Shown: positions 1 to 50,371 of the stretch, one piece after another
Position numbering within the stretch: the stretch's first letter is position 1
Layout: the number at the start of each line of letters is the position of its first letter
Assembly (NCBI RefSeq): GCF_011059185.1
Contig: NZ_JAALFE010000023.1
Coordinates: 1 to 50,371, forward strand
Reading direction: 5' to 3'
Length of the DNA stretch: 50,371 nucleotides
DNA from: Paragemmobacter kunshanensis
GTDB taxonomy: Bacteria; Pseudomonadota; Alphaproteobacteria; Rhodobacterales; Rhodobacteraceae
Translations under genes and position numbers: made by a program
Notes under the pieces: generated by a model
What the model saw: the letters and a program-made list of their open reading frames with translations, nothing else
Database searches by the model: none
What the model was told of the DNA's origin: nothing

Positions 1-77
1 GCCGTCAACGCCATGATTTATATGCGAAATATCACGATTACGACAGCGAAATCAGCGACTTACTTGGAGAATGTGGG
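1..77. repeat. Left copy of 77-bp perfect terminal inverted repeat
   Basis: These 77 bases are the exact reverse complement of the last 77 bases of the window; the two copies diverge at base 78 (G here, A in the right copy read on the minus strand). In the right copy the sequence is part of the hsdS reading frame. Here the same frame continues without a stop into the macro-domain gene. A 77-nt identity reaching precisely to both ends is what a de Bruijn assembly with k=77 leaves when both contig ends stop at one branching node, so both real repeat and assembly explanations stand. Confidence 0.95.
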
Positions 78-830
78 GTTCTGTTGTTTGTCCAAGTCCC
101 GGAGAGCTGGAGATTGCGTGGTCTGGCACTTCTTGCATTGGTGCTGGCAATCATATACGTGTACGTTTGGTTGCGCGCCAATAAACTTAGAAGCATTTCT
201 GTGAAGATTGAGGGCACAACTGTCAAAATTAAGGTTGGTGACATTTTTGAAGAAGACGACCTTAAGGTGATTGCATGCAATGAGTATTTTGACACAATCG
301 TCGATGATAAAATAATCGCCAAAAACACTGTCAATGGCGCATTTATCACGAGCTACCTTGATATTCCAGTTTCACATCTTGATGCTTTTATCGAATCGTA
401 TAGGTTTGAAGAAAATGAGGTCGGATCTGTTAATTCAAACAGGACATCCGGAAAGACTCAACGCTACAGGCTTGGAACTATTGTAAGGTATGGTGATTTT
501 CTCCTTACTGCCTTTGCTAAGTTTGACGATAGCGATCGGGCCACTCTCACAATGCCAGAGTATCTAGAGTTTCTCATGAACTTTTGGGATCGTGTGAACA
601 AAGTCTATGCCGGAAAGAGTGTTTCCGTAACGGTGTTTGGGTCAGGAATAACGAGAATCAAGGGTCACAAATTAATCAATGATGAGGAGTTGCTAAAGAT
701 CATGTTGTGGACTTTTCGAGTTAGTGAGATGCGCTTCAAGCATCCTGCGATATTGACGATAGTGATTCACGGATCGAAAATTGATAAGATTGATCTATTT
801 GATATCGCTTCCGCGAGACATGGGGTCTGA
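3..830 (+). CDS. Membrane-anchored ThsA-type macro domain protein, 5' partial
   Basis: The frame is open from the window edge to a TGA at 828-830, at least 275 residues. A hydrophobic helix (about nucleotides 114-170, ending YVYVWLRANK) is followed by a conserved domain starting VKIKVGDIFEEDD, then ACNEYFDTIVDDKI and a GAFI segment. I recognise this as the macro-like domain of Thoeris ThsA (formerly DUF6430). Family members usually have a second transmembrane helix before the visible one; here that place is taken by the hydrophilic 77-base repeat shared with hsdS, so the real start is not in the window or the junction is chimeric. Only TTG (84) is available as a local start. No TIR (ThsB) partner is next to it. 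The gene is AT-rich (22 of 60 bases are G/C in 241-300, against 45 of 60 in 2401-2460), suggesting transfer. A role in phage defence or nucleotide-signal sensing is inference. Confidence 0.7.
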   Translation, partial: RQRHDLYAKYHDYDSEISDLLGECGVLLFVQVPESWRLRGLALLALVLAIIYVYVWLRANKLRSISVKIEGTTVKIKVGDIFEEDDLKVIACNEYFDTIVDDKIIAKNTVNGAFITSYLDIPVSHLDAFIESYRFEENEVGSVNSNRTSGKTQRYRLGTIVRYGDFLLTAFAKFDDSDRATLTMPEYLEFLMNFWDRVNKVYAGKSVSVTVFGSGITRIKGHKLINDEELLKIMLWTFRVSEMRFKHPAILTIVIHGSKIDKIDLFDIASARHGV

Positions 831-1000
831 AGTTTGCTTGTGGAATCTTGCAATATGTCTGCACACGGAAGCGATCATTGGTTCTAGACAGGAACCGGCA
901 ATCATCTTGGCCTTGCGCGCAATTTCGTTTGTTGGCCTCGTCCTGGCGCAAAGGCAATCCCGCGTGTTCCCCCCGCGTTCCCCAGAAAACCCACACCAGA

Positions 1001-1049
1001 AACCGCCCCTTGGGGTGGTTCTGTATGTAGCTGAAAAATCTGGAAGATT
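1001..1049 (-). terminator. Probable terminator hairpins after tRNA-Asn
   Basis: On the minus strand, immediately 3' of the tRNA CCA end, AAATCT-TCC-AGATTT followed by TT forms a small hairpin (1033-1049). About 13 bases further AACCACCC-CAAG-GGGCGGTT (1001-1020) forms a second, GC-rich hairpin followed by a short T-rich run. Together they fit intrinsic termination of the tRNA transcript. Confidence 0.5.
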
Positions 1050-1124
1050 TGGCTCCGGCGGTAGGGATCGAACCTACGACCAATTGATTAACAGTCAACT
1101 GCTCTACCGCTGAGCTACGCCGGA
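1050..1124 (-). tRNA. tRNA-Asn(GTT)
   Basis: The minus strand folds as a complete cloverleaf: acceptor TCCGGCG pairs with CGCCGGA, the anticodon loop is CTGTTAA with anticodon GTT, the T arm reads GGTTCGATCC, the discriminator is G, and CCA is encoded (1052-1050). The 3' end faces the AT-rich macro-domain block at the left edge, the usual side for integrative elements, although no integrase is seen in the window. Confidence 0.96.
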
Positions 1125-1194
1125 ACACGTGGGCCGTATAGCAAGGGTGTTTCGGGGGGGCAAGGGGGTGTGGAGAGAAAAAGCGCGGGTGCGG

Positions 1195-2094
1195 TCAGGT
1201 CAGGTGGAAGATCGCGTCGGGGGCGGTGGGGTCTGACGTTCGGACGCGGTTATTTTCAAGCAGATCAAGCAAATGGGCAAGGACGTTGCGGCGCGCGGCG
1301 GGATGGAGCGCGGGGGGCGTGTCGTGGTAGAGCCGCATCGTCAGGCTGCCGGGATCGGCCGGGGCCCCGGACAGGAGGGCGAGGATCTGCGTCTCGCGCT
1401 GGTGGCGGTGGGTCAGGAGGGCGTGCAGCCTTTCGGCCGGGTCCGGGATCGGATCGCCGTGGCCGGGGAGGAAGCGGTCCCAAGGCTCGCCCTGCAGGCG
1501 CTGGAGCGCCGTGCAATAGGCGGCCATGTCGCCATCGGGCGGGGAGATGACCGAACTGCTCCATCCCATGACGTGATCGCCGGAGAAGAGCCACCCGCCC
1601 AAGGCGAAGCAGAGGTGGTTGCCGAGATGGCCGGGCGTGTGGAGGGCGGTGAGCGACCAGTCCGGGCCGTGGAGCGTGCTGCCGTCGTCAAGCCGTGCGT
1701 CGGGGGTGAAATCCGTGTCGAGGCCGTCGCCGCCTGCGGTGAGGCCAGCCGCTGCGAGGCGGGACATGAGGGGGGAGCGCCCATCGGTCGCCCTGCCGAA
1801 GGCGAGGACAGGTGCGCCCGTGGCGGCGGAGAGGCGGGGGGCGAGGGCGCTATGGTCGCGATGGCTGTGGGTGACGAGGATGTGGCTGATCCTTTCGCCG
1901 GGGTCGAGGGCGGCAAGGATCGCGGCGAGGTGGCGGTCATCCTCGGGGCCGGGGTCGATGACGGCCACCTGACCGGAGCCGAGCAGATAGGTATTGGTGC
2001 CGTGGAAGGTGAGCGGCGAGGGGTTGGGGGCCAGCAGATGGCGCAGGCGCGGCATGTCCCGGTCTGGGGGGAGGGGAAAGGGTGACTGTGCCAT
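1195..2094 (-). CDS. MBL-fold metallo-hydrolase (LACTB2-like)
   Basis: A 299-residue metallo-beta-lactamase-fold hydrolase. The zinc-binding signature THSHRDHS is near residue 90, followed by HTPGHLGNH, the bridging aspartate in FSGDHVMG and a late FLPGHGD motif. The C-terminal helical segment (ILALLSG ... RNVLAHLLDLLENN) matches the winged-helix tail of LACTB2-type enzymes, which act as thioesterases or endoribonucleases; the substrate here is unknown. I chose the ATG at 2094 because GAAGAGGAG lies just upstream and because the longer frame to 2151 would overlap the divergent kinase start at 2141. It is divergent from the histidine kinase, with 46 bases between them. Confidence 0.88.
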   Translation of the reverse strand: MAQSPFPLPPDRDMPRLRHLLAPNPSPLTFHGTNTYLLGSGQVAVIDPGPEDDRHLAAILAALDPGERISHILVTHSHRDHSALAPRLSAATGAPVLAFGRATDGRSPLMSRLAAAGLTAGGDGLDTDFTPDARLDDGSTLHGPDWSLTALHTPGHLGNHLCFALGGWLFSGDHVMGWSSSVISPPDGDMAAYCTALQRLQGEPWDRFLPGHGDPIPDPAERLHALLTHRHQRETQILALLSGAPADPGSLTMRLYHDTPPALHPAARRNVLAHLLDLLENNRVRTSDPTAPDAIFHLT

Positions 2095-2140
2095 GGGCTC
2101 CTCTTCCCAAGCTGCGGGCAGGAGGCTAGGCTGACGGTCG

Positions 2141-3457: not shown

Positions 3458-3490
3458 TCCCGGCGTCGGCCTTGGTGTTGCCGTTGGAAT

Positions 3491-3514
3491 TTGGGTATTT
3501 GGGCCAAGATGAAG
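3491..3514 (+). repeat. Dispersed intergenic motif GGGTATTTGGGCCAAG, copy 1
   Basis: A 24-base element reading TTGGGTATTTGGGCC then AAGATGAAG, identical to copies at 27886-27909 and 31105-31128. It lies between the kinase stop and the convergent CAP-domain gene. Related variants are at 24780-24802 and, on the minus strand, 9817-9839. Confidence 0.85.
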
Positions 3515-3527
3515 GGGCGGGTCGGGC

Positions 3528-3986: not shown

Positions 3987-4054
3987 GGGGCACCTGTGGC
4001 GGGTCGATGGGGGAAGCCTAGGCGGGGCGCGCGCCTTGCGCGAGGGGGTGGGGA

Positions 4055-18382: not shown

Positions 18383-19681
18383 ATGGCTGACCTGACGTCG
18401 AATTTCATCGGGATCAAATCGCCCAACCCGTTCTGGCTGGCCTCGGCCCCGCCGACGGACAAGGAATACAACGTCCGCCGCGCCTTTGACGCGGGCTGGG
18501 GCGGGGTGGTGTGGAAGACGCTGGGGAGCGAGGGGCCGCCGATCGTGAACGTGTCCGGCCCGCGCTATGGCGCGATCTGGGGGGCGGATCGGCGGCTTCT
18601 GGGGTTGAACAATATCGAGTTGATCACGGATCGGCCTTTGTCGGTGAACCTTGAGGAGATCCGGCGGGTCAAGAAGGACTATCCGGACCGGGCGCTGGTG
18701 ATTTCGCTGATGGTGCCCTGCGATGAGGAGTCCTGGAAGGACATCCTCATGCGGATCGAGGATACCGGGGCCGACGGGGTGGAGCTGAACTTCGGCTGCC
18801 CGCACGGGATGGCCGAACGGGGCATGGGCTCTGCCGTGGGGCAGGTGCCGGAATATATCGAGATGGTCACCGCCTGGGTGAAGCATTATTCCAAGATGCC
18901 CTGCATCGTGAAGCTGACGCCCAATGTCACCTCGATCCTGCCGCCTGCGATGGCGGCGAAACGGGGGGGGGCGGATGCGGTTTCGCTGATCAACACGATC
19001 AAGTCTGTGACGAATGTCGATCTGGACAGCTTTTCGCCCTTCCCGATGATTGATGGCAAGGGGTCGCATGGCGGCTATTGCGGGCCGGCGGTGAAGCCCA
19101 TCGCGCTGAACATGGTGGGCGAGATCGCCCGGCATGCCGAGACGCGGGGACTGCCGATCTCGGGGATCGGCGGGGTGACGACCTGGCGGGATGCGGCAGA
19201 GTTCCTGGCGATGGGGGCGGGCAATGTGCAGGTCTGCACGGCCGCGATGACCTATGGCTTCAAGATCGTGCAGGAGATGATTTCGGGCCTGTCGCAGTAT
19301 CTGGACGAGAAGGGCATGCGGCTGTATCAGCTGGTGGGCCGGGCCGTGCCGAACTTTGTCGAATGGCAGGATCTGAACCTGAACTACGTCACCAAGGCGC
19401 AGATCGACCAGGATGCCTGCATCAAATGCGGGCGCTGCTATGCAGCCTGCGAGGATACCAGCCATCAGGCCATCGCCATGTCGCCCGAGCGTATCTTTAC
19501 CGTGAAGGATGACGAATGCGTGGCCTGCAATCTTTGCGTCAATGTCTGCCCGGTGGAGAACTGCATCACCATGGTGGAGATGCCGAAGGGCGCGACCGAC
19601 CCGCGCACGGGACGGGTGGTTTCGGACTATGCCAACTGGACGACCCATCCGAACAACCCGTCGGCGCAGGCGGCCGAGTAG
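18383..19681 (+). CDS. preA: NAD-dependent dihydropyrimidine dehydrogenase subunit PreA
   Basis: A 432-residue catalytic subunit. The TIM-barrel FMN domain begins NFIGIKSPNPFWLASAPPT and includes ELNFGCPHG and GIGGVTTWRDAAEFLAMGAGNVQVCTA. A C-terminal ferredoxin domain carries two [4Fe-4S] motifs, CIKCGRCYAAC and CVACNLCVNVCP. With PreT it reduces uracil or thymine to the dihydro forms that feed the hydantoinase and ureidopropionase at 23492-26286. Three long AT-rich palindromes follow the stop. Confidence 0.95.
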   Translation: MADLTSNFIGIKSPNPFWLASAPPTDKEYNVRRAFDAGWGGVVWKTLGSEGPPIVNVSGPRYGAIWGADRRLLGLNNIELITDRPLSVNLEEIRRVKKDYPDRALVISLMVPCDEESWKDILMRIEDTGADGVELNFGCPHGMAERGMGSAVGQVPEYIEMVTAWVKHYSKMPCIVKLTPNVTSILPPAMAAKRGGADAVSLINTIKSVTNVDLDSFSPFPMIDGKGSHGGYCGPAVKPIALNMVGEIARHAETRGLPISGIGGVTTWRDAAEFLAMGAGNVQVCTAAMTYGFKIVQEMISGLSQYLDEKGMRLYQLVGRAVPNFVEWQDLNLNYVTKAQIDQDACIKCGRCYAACEDTSHQAIAMSPERIFTVKDDECVACNLCVNVCPVENCITMVEMPKGATDPRTGRVVSDYANWTTHPNNPSAQAAE

Positions 19682-19697
19682 GGGCGAAGACGGCGAA

Positions 19698-19802
19698 GCC
19701 CGAAAATTTTCCGCGGAAAATTTTCGGGCGCTGGTCCCGAAATCTTCCAGTGGAAGATTTCGGGAAAGGGGTGCCGGAAAGTTTTCTGGAAAACTTTCCG
19801 GC
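19698..19802. repeat. Tandem array of three perfect palindromes
   Basis: Three consecutive perfect inverted repeats differ in sequence but share a design: 19698-19729 (32 bp, half GCCCGAAAATTTTCCG), 19736-19764 (29 bp, half CCCGAAATCTTCCA) and 19773-19802 (30 bp, half GCCGGAAAGTTTTC). They separate the convergent preA and 76-residue genes, where bidirectional termination would be useful. Confidence 0.92.
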
Positions 19803-19814
19803 CCGGTGGCGGGG

Positions 19815-20045
19815 TCAGCAGATGACGTTGATGCGGCCTGCGTTGCAGATCACGATATACTGGCTGTCGCATTCTATGAGGTGATAGCCTCTGCGCCGAA
19901 CTTCGAGTTCGAAGGCGGCGCGCCCGATGTCGCGCTCCACATCGCGGATGGCGCGGCGGATCACGCCACCCTTCGCGACCGCCTTGGCGGCAAAGATGCT
20001 CTCGGCCCAGGAGGTGCGGCGGGGATATGTCATGTCATGTGCCAT
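19815..20045 (-). CDS. Small conserved hypothetical protein
   Basis: A 76-residue protein ending RRRGYHLIECDSQYIVICNAGRINVIC, preceded by WAESIFAAKAVAKGGVIRRAIRDVERDIGRAAFELEV. I recall similar small proteins in Rhodobacterales genomes, sometimes mis-annotated as phosphoribosylanthranilate isomerase; no function is known. It is basic in the middle and ends in a beta-rich segment with two cysteines. The start may be the ATG at 20045 or the one four codons later (MTYPRR). Confidence 0.7.
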   Translation of the reverse strand: MAHDMTYPRRTSWAESIFAAKAVAKGGVIRRAIRDVERDIGRAAFELEVRRRGYHLIECDSQYIVICNAGRINVIC

Positions 20046-20089
20046 GCCGCCAGTTTGGCAGCCAAGGGTAAAGTCGGGGTTAACGGCCC

Positions 20090-20695
20090 CTATACCGCCA
20101 GCAGTTTCCGGAACAGCGTTTCCAGATAGGCCCCGGCCTCGGCGAAGGGGTCGTGATCCGGGCCGAGCACGGCCCGGACCTGCATGTCGAAATCGGCATA
20201 ATGCTGCGTCAGCGCCCAGATCGAGAAGATCAGGTGATGCGGCGGCAGGCGCGCGATGCGCCCTTCGTCCATCCAGCCCGCGAGGATGGCCGATTTCCTG
20301 TCGACCAACTGCTTGAGATCGCCTTCGATGGCGTCGCGCATGCGCGGCGCGCCTTGCAGGATCTCGTTCGCGAAGAGGCGGCTTTCGCGGGGGAAGTCGC
20401 GGCTGAGTTCGATCTTGCGGCGGACATAGGCAAGGATTTCCGAGAGCGGATCGCCGGCGGGATCCATGTCGCGCAGGGGATCGAGCCAGGTATCGAGGAG
20501 ACGGGTCAGCAGGGCCTGGTGCATCGCCTCTTTCGAGGGGAAGTAATAGAGAAGATTGGGTTTCGACAGGCCCGCCACCTCGGCGATCTGGTCCAGCGTC
20601 GCCCCCCGGAAGCCGTAGGTGGAAAACACCTCGAGCGCGGCTTCGAGGATGGTTTCGGAATTCTTCTTCTGGATGCGGGTCCGGGGTCGGGTCAT
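20090..20695 (-). CDS. TetR family regulator, RutR-like (first of two)
   Basis: A 201-residue regulator. The HTH domain is at about residues 10-60 (ILEAALEVFSTYGFRGATLDQIAEVAGLSKPNLLYYFPSKEAMH), followed by a RutR-type ligand domain with ALTQHYADFDMQVRAVLG. I chose the ATG at 20695; the longer frame to 20806 adds an unconserved Pro-rich extension. A second, related TetR (22709-23356) lies 2.6 kb away. RutR senses uracil in E. coli, and this gene sits inside the pyrimidine-catabolism region, so a similar ligand is plausible but not shown. Confidence 0.85.
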   Translation of the reverse strand: MTRPRTRIQKKNSETILEAALEVFSTYGFRGATLDQIAEVAGLSKPNLLYYFPSKEAMHQALLTRLLDTWLDPLRDMDPAGDPLSEILAYVRRKIELSRDFPRESRLFANEILQGAPRMRDAIEGDLKQLVDRKSAILAGWMDEGRIARLPPHHLIFSIWALTQHYADFDMQVRAVLGPDHDPFAEAGAYLETLFRKLLAV

Positions 20696-20857
20696 CTTTG
20701 CGGGCTTTGGTCTTGCAGGGGTCGATTGTGCGACCTTGGCCCATATCCGGGGCGGATGCAAAGCGTTAGCGGCAAATGGGGTGACCATGGGCCTGCGGCC
20801 CGACATGCGCTTTCCCGGCCAGTCGCGAAGGCCGCAGGGCCTTCGCGGGGGCGCGGA

Positions 20858-20947
20858 TCATTCCACCGCGAGGATCATCAGATAGGGCACCGCCACCAGC
20901 ATCCCGACGACGATGGCGAGCGAACGGGTCAATCCCTTGAAATTCAT
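20858..20947 (-). CDS. Predicted 29-residue single-span membrane peptide
   Basis: An ATG at 20947, preceded by GAGGGA at good spacing, opens a 29-codon frame to a TGA at 20858: a basic start (MNFKGLTRS) and one hydrophobic helix (LAIVVGMLVAVPYLMILAV). A GC-rich hairpin (GCGAAGGCC-GCA-GGGCCTTCGC, from about 20826) follows the stop. The size is below usual gene-calling limits. The ribosome-binding site, signal-anchor look and terminator support a real gene; the function is unknown. Confidence 0.5.
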   Translation of the reverse strand: MNFKGLTRSLAIVVGMLVAVPYLMILAVE

Positions 20948-21055
20948 GCTGTCCCTCTTGTTTCCTGTGGTTCTGCAGGATTTGATCTAGGTGCAGGCAG
21001 GGGCGCGGACAGCCGACGATCACGGGAACGTGACCGGCGGTCGCGCGGGATGGTG

Positions 21056-21553
21056 TCAGGCCCCGGGAAGCAGCGTGTCGAGGGCGCGCACGACGAGACG
21101 GTGGTCTTCCAGCTGCGGCAGGCCCGAGACGGTCGCGCAAGCGACCAGCCCGGCGCCGGCGACGCAGACCGGCACGGCACCGCCGTGAATGGCATAATCG
21201 TCTTCGGAGAGGCCGTGCATGGCGAGGCTTTCTCCTTTGGCCGCCATGTTCCGCCCGACATGCAGCGAGGCGAGGTGGAAATGCAGGGCGGTGTTGGATT
21301 TCCGCCGTGCCCAGCGATCGTTGATCGGGGCGGAGCCCGGCATGGCGAGGTGAAAGAGCGTGCGGTCGGGGGTGCGGATGTCGATCACGACGGGAAGGCG
21401 GTCGAGCTTTGCCATGTTCATCATGGTCAGCCCGAGGCGAAGAGCGGTTTCTTCAGTGAATTCCGCAAGGACAAGGCGGGCGGCTTCGGCTTCGAGATCG
21501 GTGATATCCATATCGGGCTTTCGGTCCTTGCTTGCGGATCGGGGGGCGGTCAT
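21056..21553 (-). CDS. Heme-degrading-domain / UPF0303 (HbpS/GlcG-like) protein
   Basis: A 165-residue protein resembling UPF0303/HbpS-like proteins: LPVVIDIRTPDRTLFHLAMPGSAPINDRWARRKSNTA, then AAKGESLAMHGLSEDDYAIHGGAVPV and the C-terminal GLVACATVSGLPQLEDHRLVV. Some relatives bind or degrade haem, while others have no known role. The ATG at 21553 overlaps the stop of the upstream methyltransferase gene (ATGA), favouring this start; an internal ATG at 21511 (MDITDLEAEAARL) is nearer the usual family start. Confidence 0.75.
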   Translation of the reverse strand: MTAPRSASKDRKPDMDITDLEAEAARLVLAEFTEETALRLGLTMMNMAKLDRLPVVIDIRTPDRTLFHLAMPGSAPINDRWARRKSNTALHFHLASLHVGRNMAAKGESLAMHGLSEDDYAIHGGAVPVCVAGAGLVACATVSGLPQLEDHRLVVRALDTLLPGA

Positions 21554-22623
21554 GCACCCGAAGAGCGCAGCGTGGGTTTCCTGGCGGGGGTCGCTTTCGG
21601 GCTGGCCGGGCCGGGTTTGGCACGTGAAGCGGCGGGCTTTGTGGGGGGGACACGGGTTTTTGCGGCCGGGGCAGGTGCCGCAGCGGCAGGGGATGGGGCG
21701 GGCGTCGGGTCTGCCTGCGCGGCCTCGCCGCGTTCATCCCGGACCAGAAGCGCGGGGGGCAGGGCATCGGCATAGCGCCCGGGCAGATCTGCCGGGACGA
21801 GGGAACGCCGCACCAGTTCATCCAGCGCATAGAGCGCGAGGCTGTGGCTTTCGATCACGGCGGCGGCGAGGAGGGCAAGCTGCATCACCTGCCCGTCGCT
21901 GAAGCCGTCGATCCGGCCCGGATGGCGCAGATAGACGGCGTCGCCGTCGATCAGCTGATCGGCATTGCGGCGGCGATGCAGGCGCGCGGATTGGGAATTG
22001 GGCATGGGCTGGGATTTGTTGAACAGGAACTTGTGCAGCATGAAGCCCTGTGCGCGCAGGCTTTCGTCGACGCCGCCCATCATCGGCTCGTCCTCATAAA
22101 GCTGCATGTAGCGCAGTTCGACGATGACGGCGACGGCATCGGCCAGGACGCGGGTGGCATGGTCGAAGACCAGCTTCTCGCCGCCCTGAATGTCGATCTT
22201 GAGCAGGTCGCAGGGGGCGAGACCTTCGATCCGGTCTAGGCTGAGGGTCTGCATCTGCAGCTTTTCCAGAACCCGCGCCCAGCGGCCGCGACCAAGGGCG
22301 CGCAGGCCCGGCAGGTGCGGCGGGAAGATCGAGGTGAGGCCGCTGCTGGCATAGATATGCAGCGTCTGGAGGCTGCCATCGCCAACGGCATGGGGGTGAT
22401 AGCTTTCCTGCGGCCCCTTGATGCGCTGGAGTTCGGCATAGGCCGCGGGCTGCGGTTCGAACCCCGTGACATGGCAGCCGCCCGCCCGGAGGAGGGCGGC
22501 ATAGGGGGCCTCGTTGATCGGATTTGCCCCGACATCGAGGATGGAGGTCGGCCGCGGCAGCGGCAGGCTGGCAAGGAGCAGGCTGACATGGGCTGGCAGC
22601 GCGGGAGGGGAGGCGGAGGACAT
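21550..22623 (-). CDS. FkbM family methyltransferase
   Basis: A 357-residue protein. The Rossmann SAM-binding domain begins SILDVGANPINEAPYAALLRAGG, with FEPQP, then the FkbM core LLKIDIQGGEKLVFDHA and VIVELRYMQLYEDEP. A long low-complexity tail of about 60 Ala/Pro/Lys residues follows. These enzymes O-methylate sugars or small molecules; the acceptor is unknown. I chose the ATG at 22623 over a GTG three codons upstream. It is coupled to the UPF0303-like gene by ATGA. Confidence 0.82.
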   Translation of the reverse strand: MSSASPPALPAHVSLLLASLPLPRPTSILDVGANPINEAPYAALLRAGGCHVTGFEPQPAAYAELQRIKGPQESYHPHAVGDGSLQTLHIYASSGLTSIFPPHLPGLRALGRGRWARVLEKLQMQTLSLDRIEGLAPCDLLKIDIQGGEKLVFDHATRVLADAVAVIVELRYMQLYEDEPMMGGVDESLRAQGFMLHKFLFNKSQPMPNSQSARLHRRRNADQLIDGDAVYLRHPGRIDGFSDGQVMQLALLAAAVIESHSLALYALDELVRRSLVPADLPGRYADALPPALLVRDERGEAAQADPTPAPSPAAAAPAPAAKTRVPPTKPAASRAKPGPASPKATPARKPTLRSSGA

Positions 22624-22708
22624 GGCGAACACTCAAACCGATAGGGACTGCGGCCAGCCTAGGCCAAGGGCGCGGCTTTGGATAGATGGCCCGCGGGCAG
22701 GGCGATGG

Positions 22709-23356
22709 TCAGATCGCGCCGATGCCGCGCAGGATGATCTGCTTGACGCTTTCGGTGGCCTCGCGCCATTGCGCGTCGGTCAGGGGGCGGCCCTGGTTCA
22801 GGGTTTCGATCTGGTGGCCGAAATCGGCGTAATGCTGGGTCGTGGCCCAGAGCATGTAGAGCAGGTGGCGCGGGTCGATGGGGGCCATCTGCCCTTCGTC
22901 GATCCAGCGCTGGATGACGGCCATGCGGCCTTCGGTCCATTGGCGCAGGGTGGTTTCGAGATAGTCCTGGATCACGGGCGCGCCATGCATCACCTCGGCC
23001 GCCCAGACCTTGGAGCCGTGGGGGTGGCGGCGGGAGATATCCATCTTCGCCTCCACATAGGCGCCGATGCCTTCCACCGGGCCTGCCGCGCCGTCGAAGG
23101 AGGAGGCGGCGTCGAGCCAGATTTCGAAGATGTTCTGCACGACGCGGCGGTAGAGATCCTCTTTCGTGGGGAAGTAGTAATGCAGGTTGGCCTTGGGCAG
23201 GCCCGCCATATCGGCGATGAGTTGCATGGTCGCGCCGCCGAAGCCCGCCTCGGCGAAGACGCGTTCGGCGGCGTCGAGGATGAGGCGCTCATTCTGCTGC
23301 CGGATATCTGTGCGACGGCCGGGGCGGATGCGGGAAATGCGGGCGGTTCCGGGCAT
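22709..23356 (-). CDS. TetR family regulator, RutR-like (second)
   Basis: A 215-residue regulator with an N-terminal HTH (ILDAAERVFAEAGFGGATMQLIADMAGLPKANLHYYFPTKEDLY) and a RutR-type C-terminal domain with WATTQHYADFGHQIETLNQG. It is divergent from the beta-ureidopropionase gene. The spacer holds two near-perfect RutR operators, the first 18 bases before its own ATG, so autorepression and control of the catabolic operon are both expected. The effector is probably a pyrimidine or its breakdown product (inference from RutR). Confidence 0.9.
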   Translation of the reverse strand: MPGTARISRIRPGRRTDIRQQNERLILDAAERVFAEAGFGGATMQLIADMAGLPKANLHYYFPTKEDLYRRVVQNIFEIWLDAASSFDGAAGPVEGIGAYVEAKMDISRRHPHGSKVWAAEVMHGAPVIQDYLETTLRQWTEGRMAVIQRWIDEGQMAPIDPRHLLYMLWATTQHYADFGHQIETLNQGRPLTDAQWREATESVKQIILRGIGAI

Positions 23357-23374
23357 TCGTCCTCGTGATTTTCA

Positions 23375-23424
23375 TTGACCGGATGGTCAGGTTGTGATGC
23401 GTTTCGTATTGACCATATGGTCAG
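23375..23424. promoter_or_regulatory. Two RutR-type operators in a divergent promoter
   Basis: TTGACCGGATGGTCAG (23375-23390) and TTGACCATATGGTCAG (23409-23424) match the E. coli RutR consensus TTGACCANNTGGTCAA at 12 and 13 of 14 fixed positions. Their centres are 34 bases apart, about three helical turns, so two dimers could sit on the same face. They lie between the TetR gene (minus) and the ureidopropionase gene (plus). Confidence 0.85.
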
Positions 23425-23491
23425 GATGCGAGTCGATCAACAAGCGTGGGACAGGGGCCGACAGAGCCCGCACCACAGGGAGAGCCAGCCG

Positions 23492-24742
23492 ATGCCAGCA
23501 CCCGGGGAGAACCTCAGGATCAATTCCGCGCGGCTGTGGGACAGCCTTGAAGAGATGGCGTTGATCGGGCCGGGCGTGGCAGGCGGCTGCAACCGGCAGA
23601 CCCTGACGGATGCCGACAGCGAGGGGCGGCATCTGTTCCAGCGCTGGTGCGAGGCGGCGGGGATGACCATGGGCGTGGATACCATGGGCAACATGTTCGC
23701 GACGCGGGCGGGGACGGACCCGGAGGCCCTGCCGGTTTACATGGGATCGCATCTGGATACGCAGCCGACGGGCGGGAAATATGACGGTGTCCTCGGTGTG
23801 CTGGGCGCGCTGGAGGTGGTGCGGACGATGAACGATCTGGGGGTCAAGACGCGCCGCCCCATCGTGGTGACGAACTGGACGAATGAGGAGGGGGCGCGGT
23901 TCGCGCCTGCGATGCTGGCCTCGGGCGTGTTCGCGGGGATCCATACCGAGGAATATGCGAAGGGGCGGCGGGACCTTGAGGGCAAGGTCTTTGGCGAGGA
24001 ACTGGCGCGCATCGGCTGGGTAGGGGATGAGAAGGTCGGCGCGCGGAAGATGCATGCGATGCTGGAGCTGCATATCGAGCAGGGGCCGATATTGGAGGCC
24101 GAGGGGAAGACGATCGGCGTCGTGACCCACGGGCAGGGGCTGTGGTGGCTGGAGATCACGCTGACGGGGAAGGATGCGCATACCGGGTCCACGCCCATGC
24201 ATATGCGGGTCAATGCGGGGCTGGGCATGGCGCGGATCACCGAGCGCGTGCATCAGATCGCGATGAGCCATCAGCCGAACGCCGTGGGCGCGGTGGGGCA
24301 GGTGAAGGTTTTCCCGAACAGCCGCAACGTGATTCCGGGGAAGGTGGTCTTCACGGTGGATATCCGCAGCCCTGAGCAGGGGAAGCTGGATGCGATGAAG
24401 GCGGAGGTGATCCGCGCGGCGCAGGCTGTGGCGAAGGAGCTGGGTCTGGGCTGCGAGATCGAGGATGTGGGGCATTTCGATCCCGTGACCTTCGATCCCG
24501 GTCTGGTGGGCGTGGTGCGGGGCGCGGCCGAGCGGTTGGGGTATTCGCATATGGATATCGTTTCCGGCGCGGGGCATGACGCCTGCTGGATCAACCGCGT
24601 GGCGCCGACGGTGATGGTGATGTGTCCCTGCGTGGACGGGCTGAGCCATAACGAGGCGGAGGCGATCAGCCCGGAATGGGCGGCGGCGGGGACGGATGTT
24701 CTGCTGCATGCGGCGCTTGAGGTGGCGGAGGTGGTTTCCTGA
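23492..24742 (+). CDS. N-carbamoyl-beta-alanine amidohydrolase (beta-ureidopropionase), M20 family
   Basis: A 416-residue zinc amidohydrolase catalysing the last step of the reductive pyrimidine pathway, N-carbamoyl-beta-alanine to beta-alanine, CO2 and ammonia. Metal and catalytic motifs are visible: GSHLDTQPTGGKYDGVLGV, TNEEGARFAPAM, MLELHIEQGP and SGAGHDACW. The length is typical of hyuC/amaB/pydC proteins. I chose the ATG at 23492 (GGGAGAG upstream); the frame starting at 23375 would put coding sequence over the operators. It is followed by dihydropyrimidinase 89 bases downstream. Confidence 0.92.
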   Translation: MPAPGENLRINSARLWDSLEEMALIGPGVAGGCNRQTLTDADSEGRHLFQRWCEAAGMTMGVDTMGNMFATRAGTDPEALPVYMGSHLDTQPTGGKYDGVLGVLGALEVVRTMNDLGVKTRRPIVVTNWTNEEGARFAPAMLASGVFAGIHTEEYAKGRRDLEGKVFGEELARIGWVGDEKVGARKMHAMLELHIEQGPILEAEGKTIGVVTHGQGLWWLEITLTGKDAHTGSTPMHMRVNAGLGMARITERVHQIAMSHQPNAVGAVGQVKVFPNSRNVIPGKVVFTVDIRSPEQGKLDAMKAEVIRAAQAVAKELGLGCEIEDVGHFDPVTFDPGLVGVVRGAAERLGYSHMDIVSGAGHDACWINRVAPTVMVMCPCVDGLSHNEAEAISPEWAAAGTDVLLHAALEVAEVVS

Positions 24743-24747
24743 TGGAA

Positions 24748-24802
24748 CCCCCGGGGGTTTTGCACCCCCGGACCCCCGCAGGATATTTGGGAACAGATGA
24801 AG
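24748..24802 (+). repeat. GC hairpin plus variant of the dispersed TATTTGGG motif
   Basis: CCGGGGG-TTTTGCA-CCCCCGG (24751-24771) is followed by GGATATTTGGGAACAG then ATGAAG (24780-24802), a variant of the motif found exactly at three other sites. It lies between the ureidopropionase and dihydropyrimidinase genes and ends 29 bases before the latter's ATG. Confidence 0.75.
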
Positions 24803-24831
24803 CCTGAGGGTTTCGAGAGGGAGAGAAGCGG

Positions 24832-26286
24832 ATGAGCGCCACCATCATCAAGAACGGCACTGTTGTGACGGCGGACCTGTCCTACAAGGCGGATGTGCGG
24901 ATCGAGGGGGGGAAGATCACCGAGATCGGCGCGAACCTGACGGGTGGGACGGTGCTGGATGCGACGGGCTGCTATGTGATGCCGGGGGGGATCGACCCGC
25001 ATACGCATCTGGAGATGCCCTTCATGGGCACCTATTCGGCGGATGATTTCGAGAGCGGGACGCGCGCCGCGCTGTCGGGCGGGACGACGATGGTCGTGGA
25101 TTTCGTGCTGCCGGGGCAGGGGCAGGGGCTGATGGATGCCGCGCAGATGTGGCACAACAAGTCGGGTCGCGCGAATTGCGACTATTCCTACCACATGGCC
25201 GTGACATGGTGGGGCGAGAAGGTCTGGGAGGGCATGGCAGACAGCGTGAAGGCGGGGATCACCTCCTTCAAGCATTTCATGGCCTATAAGGGCGCGCTGA
25301 TGGTGAATGATGACGAGCTGTTCTCGTCCTTCCGCCGGGTGGGTGATCTGGGCGGGCTGGCCATGGTCCATGCCGAGAATGGCGATGTGGTGGCGGAGCT
25401 GACGGCGAAGCTGCTGGCCGAGGGGAATACCGGGCCGGAGGGGCATGCCTATTCCCGGCCCCCGCAGGTGGAGGGGGAGGCGACGAACCGCGCGATCATG
25501 ATTGCCGACATGGCGGGGGTGCCGCTCTATGTCGTCCACGTGTCCTGCGAGGATGCGCATGAGGCGATCCGGCGGGCGCGGCAGGCGGGCAAGCGGGTCT
25601 GGGGCGAGCCGCTGATCCAGCACCTGACGCTGGATGAGAGCGAGTATTTCCATCCCGATTGGGACCATGCCGCGCGGCGCGTGATGAGCCCGCCCTTCCG
25701 CAACAAGGAGCATCAGGCGAGCCTTTGGGCGGGGCTGATGTCGGGGTCGCTGTCCTGTGTCGCGACGGATCATTGCGCCTTCACGACCGAGCAGAAGCGG
25801 TTTGGCGTCGGGAATTTCGCCAAGATCCCGAACGGGACGGGCGGGTTGGAGGATCGTCTGCCGATGCTCTGGACGCATGGGGTGGGGACGGGGCGGTTGA
25901 CGCCGAACGAATTCGTGGCGGTGACCTCCACCAATATCGCGAAGATCCTGAACCTGTACCCGAAGAAGGGCGCGGTGCTGGTGGGGGCGGATGCGGACCT
26001 TGTCGTGCTGGACCCGGAAAAGGAGAAGGTGATTTCCGCCAGCACCCAGCAGTCGGCGATCGATTACAACGTGTTCGAGGGCCACAAGGTGAAGGGTCTG
26101 CCGCGTTTCGTGCTGACGCGGGGGCAGGTTGCCGTGAATGACGGGGCGGTGCAGACGCAGGAGGGCCACGGGAAATTCGTGGGTCGCGAGGCGCGGCCTG
26201 CGGTGAACCGGGCGCTGAGCCAGTGGAAGGACCTGACCGCGCCGCGCCCGGTGGTGCGGACGGGCATTCCGGCGACGGGTGTGTGA
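24832..26286 (+). CDS. hydA: Dihydropyrimidinase
   Basis: A 484-residue cyclic amidohydrolase that opens dihydrouracil or dihydrothymine to N-carbamoyl-beta-amino acids. Visible active-site elements are GIDPHTHLEMPF (first metal histidines), the carbamylated-lysine segment SFKHFMAYKGALMV, MVHAENGDVV, YVVHVSCEDAHEA and ATDHCAFTTEQK (late Asp). The length matches the family. A purine-rich ribosome-binding site (GAGAGGGAGAG) precedes the ATG. With PreTA and the ureidopropionase it completes the three-step pathway in one region. Confidence 0.95.
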   Translation: MSATIIKNGTVVTADLSYKADVRIEGGKITEIGANLTGGTVLDATGCYVMPGGIDPHTHLEMPFMGTYSADDFESGTRAALSGGTTMVVDFVLPGQGQGLMDAAQMWHNKSGRANCDYSYHMAVTWWGEKVWEGMADSVKAGITSFKHFMAYKGALMVNDDELFSSFRRVGDLGGLAMVHAENGDVVAELTAKLLAEGNTGPEGHAYSRPPQVEGEATNRAIMIADMAGVPLYVVHVSCEDAHEAIRRARQAGKRVWGEPLIQHLTLDESEYFHPDWDHAARRVMSPPFRNKEHQASLWAGLMSGSLSCVATDHCAFTTEQKRFGVGNFAKIPNGTGGLEDRLPMLWTHGVGTGRLTPNEFVAVTSTNIAKILNLYPKKGAVLVGADADLVVLDPEKEKVISASTQQSAIDYNVFEGHKVKGLPRFVLTRGQVAVNDGAVQTQEGHGKFVGREARPAVNRALSQWKDLTAPRPVVRTGIPATGV

Positions 26287-44411: not shown

Positions 44412-44642
44412 GTTCGTGAGATAAAGCGAGACAGATCTTGCATATATCTTGCACGAGTTGAGGCAGAACGTTTCCCTTGGAGCATGACCCCGCCTTTCGG
44501 CAAAGTAGCGAGATCGCCTGCTTGCATGTCAGCGCGAGAGTGTGATTAACGCGCGTAGGCAAGGCTATTCGCAGATCTTTGGATCGATTTCTGGCTGTTT
44601 TGGGCTACCGTCTGCATCTTCTGATCGGTTTCGGTACACTTT

Positions 44643-47600
44643 TCACGCAACCGCCTTTCTGCGGAGATCATCTACCGTAGCGATGATCCGTTGAATGTCT
44701 GCCTCCGGAAAAATACCTGAGATGCCAAGGTCGCTAAGGTCAGTGTAAGGGCTTTCGTAGAACCGAGCCGGATCTACTACACCCTGTTCGGTGAGGTGAT
44801 TTATAAGCAAGTCGAGAAATTCTTTCTGTGCGCTTGTTGGTGTCTTTCCTTCTGTAAGTGCACTGAAGGCCTCCTTGGCGGCCTTCCGGTCAAGACCAAC
44901 CAATGAACGCAAGAATAGTCCGAGACCGCCAGCTTGCGCGATCTCCTGAGCTCCATCGGACACGGGCACGCCTTCGGCATCAAACATCTTTTCCAGTTCG
45001 GCCAGATCCATCGGGGTGAGTTGCTCGGCGCGCCGAACCTTCTGCAAGGCGATGTGGTCTCTGTGCTTTTCAAGGAAGCGGCGCACCTTTGTGGTGAAGC
45101 GGGCTTTGTCGATGCCGGTGCCAATGGCTTCGACGGTGACCTCTGTGCCTGCCCCAATCTCGTCGGTGAAGTCGGTGTAGACGATCTTGCGCTCAACCGG
45201 CTCGATCAGCTTGACCAGATCGCGCAGCGAGCGGCGCACGCGTTCGAGGTCCTCTGCTAAGGTGTCCTGCCAGAACTCGTCGGTCTGCACTTCAAGGATC
45301 AGCGGCAAGTGGTTCTTGACCAGCGGCACGTTTGCCAGCGCCTCAAGGTCCGATGCCACTTGCCTGATCCTGTTTGAATACTGGATGAAGGTGGCGTCCT
45401 GCTGCAGCAGACGGAGCATCGCGCCCAGTACGAGAAGGTCGAACTGCTTTGCAGCGAGGTCGTCGTCTTGGAAGGCGCTGGGCAGGCCGGAGACCTTGGT
45501 CGTCAGGTCTAGACGATCCTCGATGCCAAGGCTGTCCCACACGTCGCGCTTCTGGAACCGTTCAACCGTGCGCCTTTGCTGCCGGACGAGGAAGTTCTCG
45601 ACTGACATGCCCGCCACCTCTTCATACAGTCGGTCACGCAGGGTGGTGGTCAGGTCCGCATGGTCTTCCTTGCCCGCCAGCTCGGCGATCAACTCGACGC
45701 GGGTGTTGAATAGCCTCGCGCCGATGGGCAGGCCTATCGTGGGTTCGACGCGGTCGGGGTTCTGGTTGAAAAATTCGAAGTTCTGGCAGAAGTCGAAAAT
45801 CTGGAAGCTTTCCTTGTCCTGCCCGACGCCGAAAAGGTCTGGGCGCAGGCGGGTGCCGCGACCGATCATTTGCCAGAACTTGGTCTTCGAGCGGACGATC
45901 TTGAAGAAGACGAGGTTTACCACCTCCGGCACGTCGATGCCGGTGTCGAGCATGTCGACCGAAACGGCGATGTACGGGGCCTTTTCGGCTTCCGAGAAGT
46001 CGTCGATCAGGCTTTGGGCATAGACCACGCTGTAGTCGATCAGGCGGGCGAACTGGCCCGCGTGATGCGGGTAGTTCGCGTCGAACCGCTCGACGATGAA
46101 CTGGGCGTGCTTGCTGTTCTTGGCGAAGATGATCGTCTTGCCAAGCCGGTCTCCGCCAGCCACCTTGATGCCGTGGGTCATCAGGTATTCGAGGACCTTG
46201 TCGACAGTATCCTCGTTGAATAGCCACTTGTTCAGGTCATTGGCGTCGACGCGGTCAGGAACCTCGCCGTCTTCGTTCCACTCCAGTGCGTCCCACTCGG
46301 ATTTCTCTTCCTCGGACAGCTGGTCATAGGTGATCCCTTCGCGCTGGAACTTCAGCGGCACCGATACCACGCGCGGCGGGACGAGGTAGCCATCGGCCAC
46401 GGCGTCGTCGAGGTCGTAGGCATCGGTCGGGACGCCGCGTTCAAGCTGGAAGAGCGAATATGTGTCGCGGTCGATCTCGTCCCGCGGAGTGGCGGTCAGA
46501 CCTACGAGCAGGCTGTCGAAGTAGTCGAATATCGCGCGGTATTTGCGGTAGACCGAGCGGTGCGCCTCGTCGATCACGATCAGGTCGAAATGGCCCGCGC
46601 TGAAGCGTTTGGTGCCGTCCTTCACCTCGTCGATCAGGCCCATCATGGTAGGATAGGTCGACAGGCACACGCGCGCGGCGCTGTGGTCGTTCTTCTTCGG
46701 ATCGTGCTTCTCCAGCAGGTTGGCGCTTGGGGCCGTGGGAAGGTGCCTCTTGAACGCGCCGTGGGCCTGTTTCACCAATGCCACGCGGTCGGCGAGGAAG
46801 AGGACGCGCTTGCACCAGTTCGCCCGCATCAGCTGGTCTATCAGCGCAATGACGGTGCGTGTCTTGCCCGATCCGGTGGCCATAACCAGCAGCGCCTTGC
46901 GCTGGCGGTCCTTCTCGAACGCCTCGCCCACGCGGCGTATGGCGCGGGCTTGGTAGAAGCGGCCTGCGATGTCTTCGTCGACGTCGACCGTTTCCAGAGG
47001 CTTGCGGCTGGCGCGGCGCTGGTGGAGGAGCTGCAGTTCGTCCTTCTTGTAGAAGCCGGACACGGGGCGCGGCGGGTACATCGCGTCATCCCAGAGCCAA
47101 TGCTCGTAGCCGTTGGTGCAGAAGATCACGGGGCGGCGGCCAAAGGCCTTTTCCAGACAGTCAGCGTAAAGCTTCGCCTGCTGCTGGCCAACCAGCGCGT
47201 CCTTGCGGGTGCGCTTGGCCTCGACCACCGCCAAGGGCAGGCCGTCATCGCCCCAGAGGACGTAATCGACGAAACCCCTACCTTCCGCGTTCGGCATGCC
47301 GTGCACTTCGAACTCGCGGTCGCGGGCGTCGGTCAGGGGCCAGCCAGCCTCAGCCAGCAAGAGGTCAATGAAGGCGTCGCGGGTGGCGGCTTCGTTGTAG
47401 TCGTGGGTGTCGGGGGCGGCTTGGTTCGCCTTGCGGATGGCCGCGATTTCGGCGCGCAGGGCGGCCAGTTCCGCCTCGACCGCTGCGCGCCCCTCTTCGG
47501 TGGCGCGGCGCGCCTCCTCGGCCTGTTTGGCGGCTTTTACGGCTAGGTCGTGGTCTTCCTTCAGCTTCCTGATCTGGTCGACCGTGGAAGCGCTGATCGT

Positions 47601-48032
47601 CAGCGTCTTTTGCAGCTTGGCGGGGTCAAAGGCTATGCCCGCGTCAGGCTTGGCCCCTTTGGCATAGGTGCGGGCGATCCAGTAGCAGATGTGGTGCAGT
47701 TCCTTCAGCACCGCCAAGGCTGAGGCGGTGGTTACGGGCTTCATGTCATGGACGGCGCGGTTGCCGGTGTCCTTGACGAACCGCGCTTTGGTGACGATGG
47801 CGGGGCCAGCGAGGGCCGTCAGGCTGGGTTCGGCGATCAGGGCGGCGAGGGTCGTCTCGTAGGGCCGTTTCAGCAGCGGTTCACGTTGGTAGAGCCATGT
47901 GAGGCCGACTTCGAGCGCGAGCCTTGCGTAGAAGCACGCGCCACGCGGGTCAGACAAAGCGGAGGCCTCGGCCCGCTGGGCCGGATCGGCGAGGTCTTTA
48001 AATTCGGCGCGCAGAAATGCGAACTGGGTCAT
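44643..48032 (-). CDS. hsdR: Type I restriction endonuclease subunit R
   Basis: An 1129-residue motor-nuclease, full length. It begins with a DUF4145-type helical domain (about 35-125) and a coiled coil (about 150-205). The PD-(D/E)xK nuclease follows (FVDYVLW near 254, VVEAKR near 271), then SF2 helicase motifs: Walker A MATGSGKT near 385, DEAH near 486, TATPRDE, and motif VI QMIGRGTRLRP. The C-terminal EcoEI-type domain contacts the methylase. It translocates DNA and cuts unmodified phage or plasmid DNA as part of an R2M2S complex. Its ATG overlaps the stop of the upstream unknown gene (ATGA). Confidence 0.95.
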   Translation of the reverse strand: MTQFAFLRAEFKDLADPAQRAEASALSDPRGACFYARLALEVGLTWLYQREPLLKRPYETTLAALIAEPSLTALAGPAIVTKARFVKDTGNRAVHDMKPVTTASALAVLKELHHICYWIARTYAKGAKPDAGIAFDPAKLQKTLTISASTVDQIRKLKEDHDLAVKAAKQAEEARRATEEGRAAVEAELAALRAEIAAIRKANQAAPDTHDYNEAATRDAFIDLLLAEAGWPLTDARDREFEVHGMPNAEGRGFVDYVLWGDDGLPLAVVEAKRTRKDALVGQQQAKLYADCLEKAFGRRPVIFCTNGYEHWLWDDAMYPPRPVSGFYKKDELQLLHQRRASRKPLETVDVDEDIAGRFYQARAIRRVGEAFEKDRQRKALLVMATGSGKTRTVIALIDQLMRANWCKRVLFLADRVALVKQAHGAFKRHLPTAPSANLLEKHDPKKNDHSAARVCLSTYPTMMGLIDEVKDGTKRFSAGHFDLIVIDEAHRSVYRKYRAIFDYFDSLLVGLTATPRDEIDRDTYSLFQLERGVPTDAYDLDDAVADGYLVPPRVVSVPLKFQREGITYDQLSEEEKSEWDALEWNEDGEVPDRVDANDLNKWLFNEDTVDKVLEYLMTHGIKVAGGDRLGKTIIFAKNSKHAQFIVERFDANYPHHAGQFARLIDYSVVYAQSLIDDFSEAEKAPYIAVSVDMLDTGIDVPEVVNLVFFKIVRSKTKFWQMIGRGTRLRPDLFGVGQDKESFQIFDFCQNFEFFNQNPDRVEPTIGLPIGARLFNTRVELIAELAGKEDHADLTTTLRDRLYEEVAGMSVENFLVRQQRRTVERFQKRDVWDSLGIEDRLDLTTKVSGLPSAFQDDDLAAKQFDLLVLGAMLRLLQQDATFIQYSNRIRQVASDLEALANVPLVKNHLPLILEVQTDEFWQDTLAEDLERVRRSLRDLVKLIEPVERKIVYTDFTDEIGAGTEVTVEAIGTGIDKARFTTKVRRFLEKHRDHIALQKVRRAEQLTPMDLAELEKMFDAEGVPVSDGAQEIAQAGGLGLFLRSLVGLDRKAAKEAFSALTEGKTPTSAQKEFLDLLINHLTEQGVVDPARFYESPYTDLSDLGISGIFPEADIQRIIATVDDLRRKAVA

Positions 48033-48583
48033 ATCGACCGCGTGACGAGGTCCATCACCGAGGCGTTTGACATGATGAACTGTACGGCTTGCGAGAAATC
48101 GCCCTCTTCTTCGTTCCCCAAGTTCATCGCCATCTGAAACAGTAGCTGGTCAAGATCGAAGACGTTCTCGAAATCTACCATCGAAACGACCTCATGCGAT
48201 CCCAGATCGTAGGCGAGGAACTTCAAGTGCGTCTGACTGGACGCATCGGCGACCAGTTTCAGCGTGCCGAACTGGAAGGGGTTCAGGAAAGTCTCAACAT
48301 AGGTTTCTTGTGGCGTCCCTGCAGCGATCTGCCAGACGACATAGGCAACGATGCCGTGCGGAGTGCTGACGATCCCCTTATGGGCAATCAGGGTCATGGG
48401 CTGAACGTGCGCAAGACCTTTGGCGTGCGGCGGTTCCTCCCTAAAGAAGACGACAACCTCGTCGCCAACGTCGGCGTCAAAGGTCACTCGATAGAAACCA
48501 CACCCGTAAGTCCGCATCTCTCTGGGCAGGGGCGGGAGCGCGAAGTCCTTGATGCCGTGACGCCACTGGTTATCAATGATCAT
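48029..48583 (-). CDS. Unknown protein between GIY-YIG-like gene and hsdR
   Basis: A 184-residue protein with no recognised domain. It starts MIIDNQWRHGIKDFALPPLPREMRTYG, is strand-rich in the middle (VGDEVVVFFREEPPHAKG, GIVAYVVWQIAAGTPQE) and ends in an acidic helical part (FDLDQLLFQMAMNLGNEEEGDF). Its stop is inside the hsdR start (ATGA), so production is tied to HsdR. It could be an accessory or control factor of the restriction system, or a second defence component. I chose the ATG at 48583; GTG/TTG alternatives exist a few codons upstream. Confidence 0.75.
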   Translation of the reverse strand: MIIDNQWRHGIKDFALPPLPREMRTYGCGFYRVTFDADVGDEVVVFFREEPPHAKGLAHVQPMTLIAHKGIVSTPHGIVAYVVWQIAAGTPQETYVETFLNPFQFGTLKLVADASSQTHLKFLAYDLGSHEVVSMVDFENVFDLDQLLFQMAMNLGNEEEGDFSQAVQFIMSNASVMDLVTRSI

Positions 48584-48666
48584 TAATGTACACCCTTGAT
48601 GCAATCAGACCAAATGTTACGCGAAGACTAAACCAGAACAAGCCTTGCGATGCGCAGCTTCGAATT

Positions 48667-49173
48667 TTACCGAAGTTCAGGAAATTCGCTCCGGAAGGCT
48701 TCCTTGGCCGCCTCCCATTTTTCTAAACCGTCCGGTGACAGCGACCAGCTGCAGGCGACCGTATTCATCACGTTGTAGCCGACAGCCTTCAGCCCGTCGC
48801 AAAGCAGCTTTTCCATTGCACCGACCTGATTGCGTAGCGGGGTATGCTTTAACATCAGTGCGGCACGGTCAGCGCCGTCATGCGCGACCTGATCGTAGAT
48901 CGGCCCGTGTGCAATCAGATCGAAGCTGTTGCAATCTTCGGGACGGATGTCGCGTTTCAGCAGGTGTTTTCGCAGGGCGTTTTGGGTGGTCTGGAACCCC
49001 AGATGCTGACCCATGCGTGTGTATGGCGCGGTTGCATGGGGGCTGGAGTTGTCGCCGGTTCGCCCAACGTAGAGCAGCGTGTTATCTCCGGCGTCTACAC
49101 GCCAAACATAGAGCCAGAAACCTCGGCGCAGCATTGGACCTGGCAGAGTTAACTTATGGATAGGGGCGGTCAC
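48667..49173 (-). CDS. GIY-YIG-like nuclease-fold protein in the hsd operon
   Basis: A 168-residue protein with a degenerate GIY-YIG pattern: FWLYVWRV, eleven residues, LLYVGRT, then YTRMGQHLG (Arg/His), VGAMEKLLCDG (the Glu helix) and YNVMNTV (the late Asn). All usual catalytic positions have plausible residues, so it may be an active nuclease or a fold-only relative. Its ATG overlaps the hsdS stop (ATGA). Finding it between hsdS and hsdR is not the standard order; a helper for degrading cut DNA is a guess. Confidence 0.65.
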   Translation of the reverse strand: MTAPIHKLTLPGPMLRRGFWLYVWRVDAGDNTLLYVGRTGDNSSPHATAPYTRMGQHLGFQTTQNALRKHLLKRDIRPEDCNSFDLIAHGPIYDQVAHDGADRAALMLKHTPLRNQVGAMEKLLCDGLKAVGYNVMNTVACSWSLSPDGLEKWEAAKEAFRSEFPELR

Positions 49174-50371
49174 AGTTCACCTCGGAAAGCTCGATGCTGT
49201 AACGATCCGAATAGCTGGTCGAAAGCCATAGCCTGCCTCTCGGCAACAAGGGTCTGATTTGCCACTTCGTTTCGGCGGTCCAAGAACTTCTGCTGCTCTG
49301 CCAGCGGCAGAATTGGGACTTCGAAGTCTTCTATCTGGGCTTTGGTGATCGCTTGGCGTGTTGCACCAGCCTCTGCAATTCGAAGAAGCTCGGATTTTGA
49401 TTTTGGCAACAGGAGAAAAGCCTCCAAGAACTCAGGCACCACGATCCTATTGGGGCGAATGATCGCCACGTGCTGATTTACCCGCGCCCCACTTAGTTCA
49501 GGAGGAGCTATACAGACCCGCGCGACGGATGCTCCGGTGATGTTCAGAAGAACGTCACGCCCCTGCACGATCACATTCTTCAGGCCGTCGGCCTGTGCGT
49601 CGTCAAGGAACGCTAAGCCCTTCCTGTCAAAAAAGCCGTCCCGCACGTTCATGCTTCGGATAAGGGGGACCCCCTGTTCCTTGTATGCACTGTCACCACC
49701 GCGAGGCGTGGCACCGCTTCCAATCTTGACGCAAACCTCCCCGAGTTTTTGTCGTTCAGCCGACGCTTGGTCATCCCCAAACATCTCCTGAAAGATCGCC
49801 TGCCCGAGGGCGTTGAGGCGGTCGAGGGCGCGGGCGCGGAGACGGCGCAGCGCGTCCGCCTGATCAAGGATCGCCGCGATGCGCTTTTGCTCCTCCAAGG
49901 GGGGGAGGGGGATAGTCATCTGCTTCAGGTGGCTTGGCCCAAAGTTCAACTGGGCGCTACCTGTGACTAGCCGACTGATCTGCGTCCGAAAGGATGCTGA
50001 CTGAAACCAATGCCTCAGGAATGCCAGATCGGATACATCGGTCTTGGCCTTAAAGCGTATCGTGCTTGTGTTCATGCACAGCGGAAGGTGTTGTTCGTGA
50101 ACAAATGCAACCTTAGTGCGCAGAAAGCCGTCCTCGTCGAAGGATATGCCGCTGCTCGCGATCACCAAATCGCCCGCATCCACTGCGAAATGTCTATACT
50201 TACGATCAAACTCTTCGACGGACAGATGCCTATCAGTCCTTGAAAGATCGATGGTACCGTTCGGTAAAATGTTGCCCACGTTCAGCACCTTTATCCCACA
50301 TTCTCCAAGTAAGTCGCTGATTTCGCTGTCGTAATCGTGATATTTCGCATATAAATCATGGCGTTGACGGC
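49170..50371 (-). CDS. hsdS: Type I restriction-modification specificity subunit, 5' partial
   Basis: About 399 residues are visible; the N-terminus lies beyond the window end. The sequence runs from the end of the first target-recognition domain (GIKVLNVGNILPNGTIDLS ... LNFGPSHLKQMTIPLPPLEEQ) through the central conserved helix (KRIAAILDQADALRRLRARALDRL) to a second recognition domain (GEVCVKIGSGATPRGGD ... IEDFEVPILPLAEQQ) and the distal conserved helix. This is the usual two-TRD design that reads a bipartite DNA site for HsdM and HsdR. The last 77 bases are the terminal inverted repeat. hsdM is expected just outside the window. Confidence 0.92.
   Translation of the reverse strand, partial: RQRHDLYAKYHDYDSEISDLLGECGIKVLNVGNILPNGTIDLSRTDRHLSVEEFDRKYRHFAVDAGDLVIASSGISFDEDGFLRTKVAFVHEQHLPLCMNTSTIRFKAKTDVSDLAFLRHWFQSASFRTQISRLVTGSAQLNFGPSHLKQMTIPLPPLEEQKRIAAILDQADALRRLRARALDRLNALGQAIFQEMFGDDQASAERQKLGEVCVKIGSGATPRGGDSAYKEQGVPLIRSMNVRDGFFDRKGLAFLDDAQADGLKNVIVQGRDVLLNITGASVARVCIAPPELSGARVNQHVAIIRPNRIVVPEFLEAFLLLPKSKSELLRIAEAGATRQAITKAQIEDFEVPILPLAEQQKFLDRRNEVANQTLVAERQAMAFDQLFGSLQHRAFRGEL
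50295..50371. repeat. Right copy of 77-bp perfect terminal inverted repeat
   Basis: This is the exact reverse complement of bases 1-77. Here it encodes part of the hsdS frame (residues ending DSEISDLLGECG before GIKVLNVGNI), which reads as natural HsdS sequence, so this is more likely the original location of the sequence. Confidence 0.95.

Follow-up and report, generated by a model that had tools for sequence, protein, structure and literature searches.

The window analyzed in the present study, a stretch of 50,371 nucleotides that represents the complete contig C34 of a 117-contig draft genome totaling 4,464,082 bases, ends on both sides in the same 77 bases in inverted orientation. This contig almost certainly halts at two separate, oppositely oriented copies of the insertion sequence (IS) ISPme1, with the matching ends being a consequence of the assembly of a multicopy IS. 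The two termini are as follows:

1..77, plus strand: ISPme1 terminus of 77 bp (on the start-codon side of the transposase gene), a 77-base overlap with other contigs, with the body of the IS lying beyond the window
50295..50371, minus strand: the same ISPme1 terminus of a second copy in reversed orientation, matching 1..77

Positions 1-77 and the reverse complement of 50295-50371 were identical (0 mismatches), with the first difference at base 78, as claimed in the initial annotation of this DNA, and 20-mers sampled every 5 bases along the 77-mer were found within the window at the two ends only. When the genome itself was searched, the 77-mer was present with 0 mismatches at 31 contig ends and one internal site in contig C66, with differing sequences beyond it among these 31 ends, and a variant with mismatches at 13 of the 77 positions was present at four more contig ends. 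A match of this kind is far beyond chance. The 77 bases had also been regarded as part of hsdS, which was incorrect because they correspond to the end of ISPme1, as judged by the DNA identity described below, and the matches to the gene family begin later in the reading frame; the 77-mer supplies residues 1-25 of a 399-residue frame, in which the Methylase_S match started from residue 51 and the best NCBIfam match from residue 25. A protein segment encoded by the frame through the 77-mer and shared among contigs was rejected based on the different continuations on the 31 contig ends, and was also countered by C66, in which the 77-mer sits upstream of a transposase start.

Regarding the identity of the repeat, the sequence of C66 runs on inward from the 77-mer for 1525 bases, into the following gene:

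C66:153-1508, minus strand: IS1380 transposase of 451 residues (NF033539, PF13701)

The transposase scored 387.5 bits against NF033539 (transpos_IS1380), which has a cut-off of 180, and matched PF13701 (DDE_Tnp_1_4) at 6.4e-146, well above the cut-off. A search with C66:1-1602 matched 208 plasmid records, 34 of which showed at least 99% identity; the first 23 records listed covered 100% of the query at 99.9% DNA identity, and 20 of these 23 were annotated with an ISPme1-family transposase. Isoforms of one IS are recognized by the rule of at least 95% DNA identity, and the identity of 99.9% over 1602 bases between C66 and the ISPme1-annotated records is within this rule. Furthermore, an IS copy joined from two contigs had a length of 1671 bp, and seven plasmid copies aligned with it over its full length, one of them being a copy with the same ends on pMTH1 of Paracoccus methylutens; besides 2 to 4 mismatches in 1671 bases, no difference from ISPme1 was seen. 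The two termini of the IS agreed at 14 of their first 16 positions, constituting short imperfect terminal inverted repeats. The opposite (left) end of the IS was present at 16 contig ends, which had C66:1-77 and 69 more bases in common, except that one of them deviated at a single base. These identities establish the 77-mer as the right end of ISPme1, an IS1380-family insertion sequence of approximately 1.67 kb.

IS1247, which also belongs to the IS1380 family, is listed in Table 2 of PMC3281130 with a length of 1672 bp, inverted repeats of 16/13, and 5-bp direct repeats. Records annotated as IS1247 covered 99% of the query at a DNA identity of approximately 85%, and the repeat in the window was assigned to ISPme1 by identity. 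The variant that deviates at 13 of the 77 positions, located at the termini of C30, C60, C42, and C31, represents a related second IS1380-type end and may belong to an IS1247-like element. A search for the left end allowing up to 3 mismatches in 19 bases found 21 places, comprising the 16 exact left ends, C73 and C77 with 2 mismatches, and three internal places with 3 mismatches. The sequences at the termini of C77 and C73 are possibly the other side of the IS1247-like element, the end counts of which are again uneven (4 versus 2) if both sets belong together.

To examine the length of the match, we collected the 131 contig ends that were visible in the draft, in which 51 of the 117 contigs, all short, read as N throughout where fetched and one more contig had one N end. 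Ninety-seven of the 131 visible ends fell into sixteen groups of at least two members with a common terminal 77-mer, while 34 ends were unmatched. The overlap was exactly 77 bases in 15 of the 16 groups and 78 bases in one, and the sequences differed from group to group. In the group of left IS ends, the length of 77 was due to the single deviating member, with the remaining 15 having 146 bases in common. Contigs of another genome of the same genus (G006) started with 127 and 124 bases of the right ISPme1 end, and those of a third (G018) with 115, 115, and 114 bases; therefore, the overlap was not strictly constant in these two genomes, varying by 1 to 3 bases. Since the overlap was approximately uniform within each assembly, nearly constant in G006 and G018, and different between assemblies, its length goes with the assembly. 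Values of 77 and 127 are common choices of k in assemblers, and a length of 77 is consistent with such a k-mer, from which we infer k = 77. The alternative raised in the initial annotation, namely, that both contig ends reach one branch node of a k-mer graph, is borne out by the 31 ends that meet at one node with differing continuations and by the overlap of 77 bases in 15 of the 16 groups. Three more repeats were noted among the contig ends, starting with TGTTGATTTGCACTG, TGTTGATTTGCGCTG, and GTCGTCTAATCGCAG and present at 9, 9, and 6 ends, respectively, and are probably other insertion sequences.

Taken together, the genome holds dozens of near-identical copies of ISPme1, which an assembler with the k of 77 suggested above would have been unable to cross, and contigs arriving at the same IS end would thus bear identical terminal 77 bases. 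Since both ends of the window contig meet the same IS end, the flanking copies point in opposite ways. Both copies presumably entered by ordinary transposition, thereby breaking the anti-phage defense genes thsA and hsdS. Matching ends of this kind are ordinary and already known. The present results remove a false lead because fixed-length identical termini on many contigs indicate a collapsed repeat rather than a local switch; the positive yield is modest, namely, two genes at the edges of this contig, one of a Thoeris system and one for type I restriction, apparently broken by copies of a known IS.

The gene adjoining the left terminus is as follows:

84..830, plus strand: truncated thsA (Thoeris macro-domain protein), with approximately the first 30 codons absent (PF20016, 5.9e-60; PADLOC ThsA)

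The PADLOC ThsA profile was matched at positions 31-278 of 278, and relatives in eight named records each had an open frame of at least 30 residues upstream of the matched stretch, with the match beginning 12 residues later in one of the eight. The start of the profile match at position 31 and the upstream frames of these relatives suggest that the IS removed approximately 30 codons, and, thus, thsA appears to have been interrupted by the insertion of ISPme1. The detached start of the gene was not found in the draft, in which 51 contigs read as N.

At the right terminus, the following genes of a type I restriction locus were identified:

49170..50294, minus strand: truncated hsdS (type I specificity subunit), with the N-terminal piece absent (PF01420, alignment with the Aliarcobacter HsdS, PADLOC Specificity_I)
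48029..48604, minus strand: ORF of 191 aa between hsdS and hsdR, with a hypothetical protein at the corresponding position of a Thioclava plasmid
44643..48032, minus strand: hsdR (type I restriction subunit; Pfam, PADLOC)

The second residue of HsdS past the 77-mer aligned to residue 252 of the 426-residue Aliarcobacter HsdS, which is in its second half, and the remainder of the window protein aligned to the first half. This alignment places the IS inside the first specificity domain of the window HsdS, and hsdS also appears to have been interrupted by the insertion of ISPme1. The ORF at 48029..48604 had no match in Pfam and PADLOC searches. The gene order in the Thioclava plasmid was a DNA methyltransferase, hsdS, a hypothetical gene, and a helicase-type gene, and the window followed the same order from hsdS onward, from which hsdM is expected past the IS. 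Among the other contigs of the genome, none of the seven matches to N6_Mtase (PF02384) was tied to the right end of the window, and hsdM was not found; similarly, none of the four PF01420 matches in the genome was tied to this end as the rest of hsdS.

We also examined the bases immediately flanking the IS termini for target duplications. The candidates in the window are as follows:

78..82, plus strand: candidate 5-bp target duplication GTTCT, the first five bases past the IS
50290..50294, minus strand: candidate 5-bp target duplication ATAAA, the first five bases past the IS

None of the 16 visible left ends carried a GTTCT or ATAAA flank as a partner, and neither insertion in the window was seen from both sides. 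In the draft as a whole (16 left and 32 right flanks), 9 of the 16 left ends had the same 5-bp flank on a right end, versus a mean of 3.7 pairs in column-shuffled flanks, of which 24 of 20,000 shuffles gave at least 9 pairs. Matching over 4 bp yielded 4 pairs (shuffled mean of 2.0; reached in 149 of 2,000 shuffles) and matching over 6 bp yielded 2 pairs (shuffled mean of 0.09; reached in 4 of 2,000 shuffles); therefore, 5 bp is the best-supported duplication length in this draft, although other lengths exceed their means too. The target was biased, with T at position 2 in 24 and A at position 4 in 25 of the 32 right flanks, and column shuffles were used as the control because a shifted-position control underestimates chance with a biased target. 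The pairing over 5 bp agrees with the 5-bp direct repeat listed for IS1247 in the table of PMC3281130. No 5-bp direct repeat directly flanked any of the seven plasmid copies of ISPme1 inspected, although a 6-base match was present in one, in contrast to what the flank pairing suggests for many copies in the draft.

An intact copy of an IS has one right and one left end. The visible ISPme1 termini in the draft comprised 32 right and 16 left ends, with the 51 short contigs reading as N, and a simple two-sided binomial test gave a value of 0.03 for this difference. The missing left ends may lie in these N-masked contigs. Left ends missed through divergence were rejected as a cause because the search allowing 3 mismatches added only C73, C77, and three internal places to the 16 exact ends. 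Either end of the IS was present in three other genomes among 18 of the same genus, with right and left counts of 4 and 1, 2 and 2, and 4 and 3, respectively. The 23 plasmid records with a right end had 32 right and 33 left ends, with pMTH1 being the sole uneven record (3 right and 4 left), while 11 additional plasmid records had the left end only. The near-balanced counts in plasmids show that the element itself is not one-ended.

Some copies of ISPme1 may have moved as transposable modules consisting of the IS and DNA next to its 3' end, such that shared DNA on the left side results in fewer distinct left junctions. A passage of PMC9330008 reports that ISPme1 mobilizes DNA adjoining its 3' end, and transposable modules of ISPme1 are mentioned in a passage of PMC3281130. 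The transposase of C66 reads toward the left end, the side with fewer junctions, which is also consistent with modules; however, among the visible contig ends, the 23 right flanks left unpaired had no match in the flank of any shared group other than the left IS end. Matches to unpaired right flanks were present at three unshared ends (C75, C55, and C64), without a control. Considering both sides, we regard a contribution of modules as somewhat unlikely, and it is doubtful that the twofold excess of right ends reflects the spread of approximately half of the copies as one-sided modules with shared left-end DNA. If this one-sided spread were true, ISPme1 would be a main driver of gene duplication and defense-gene loss in this strain. 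A shorter element bounded by the right end on both sides and coexisting with the full IS would also explain 32 right versus 16 left ends, but is very improbable and was rejected because right-right pairs with complementary 5-bp flanks numbered 3 versus a shuffled mean of 3.03, and the right and left ends in plasmid records bearing the right end were close in number (32 and 33, respectively).

The other reading in the initial annotation, in which hsdS-like inverted repeats flank an invertible 50-kb segment and switch type I specificity, is scarcely credible: although the inverted repeat is exact and adjoins hsdS, and homologous recombination between the oppositely oriented IS copies could invert the segment, the 77-mer belongs to the end of ISPme1 by identity and adjoins 31 different sequences on contig ends, no hsdS family match begins before residue 25 of the frame including it, and the opposite end of the window carries thsA and no second hsdS. 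Inverted hsdS repeats occur at loci that switch type I specificity. The window resembles such loci in that hsdS adjoins an inverted repeat, and differs in that the repeat is ISPme1 rather than hsdS, with thsA as the left neighbor; inverted repeats within hsdS genes or fragments were not found at the two window ends. Other PF01420 matches of the genome were located on C28 and C44. Therefore, the branch-node part of the initial annotation was supported, whereas the switch was not, and both genes look as if the IS had interrupted them. Like any inverted pair of ISs, the two ISPme1 copies could in principle recombine homologously and invert the segment, but nothing in the draft assembly shows this. 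Far from the defense genes at both ends, the region at 18383-26286 on the plus strand carries ordinary pyrimidine-breakdown genes, encoding PreA, a hydantoinase/carbamoylase-family amidase, and dihydropyrimidinase.
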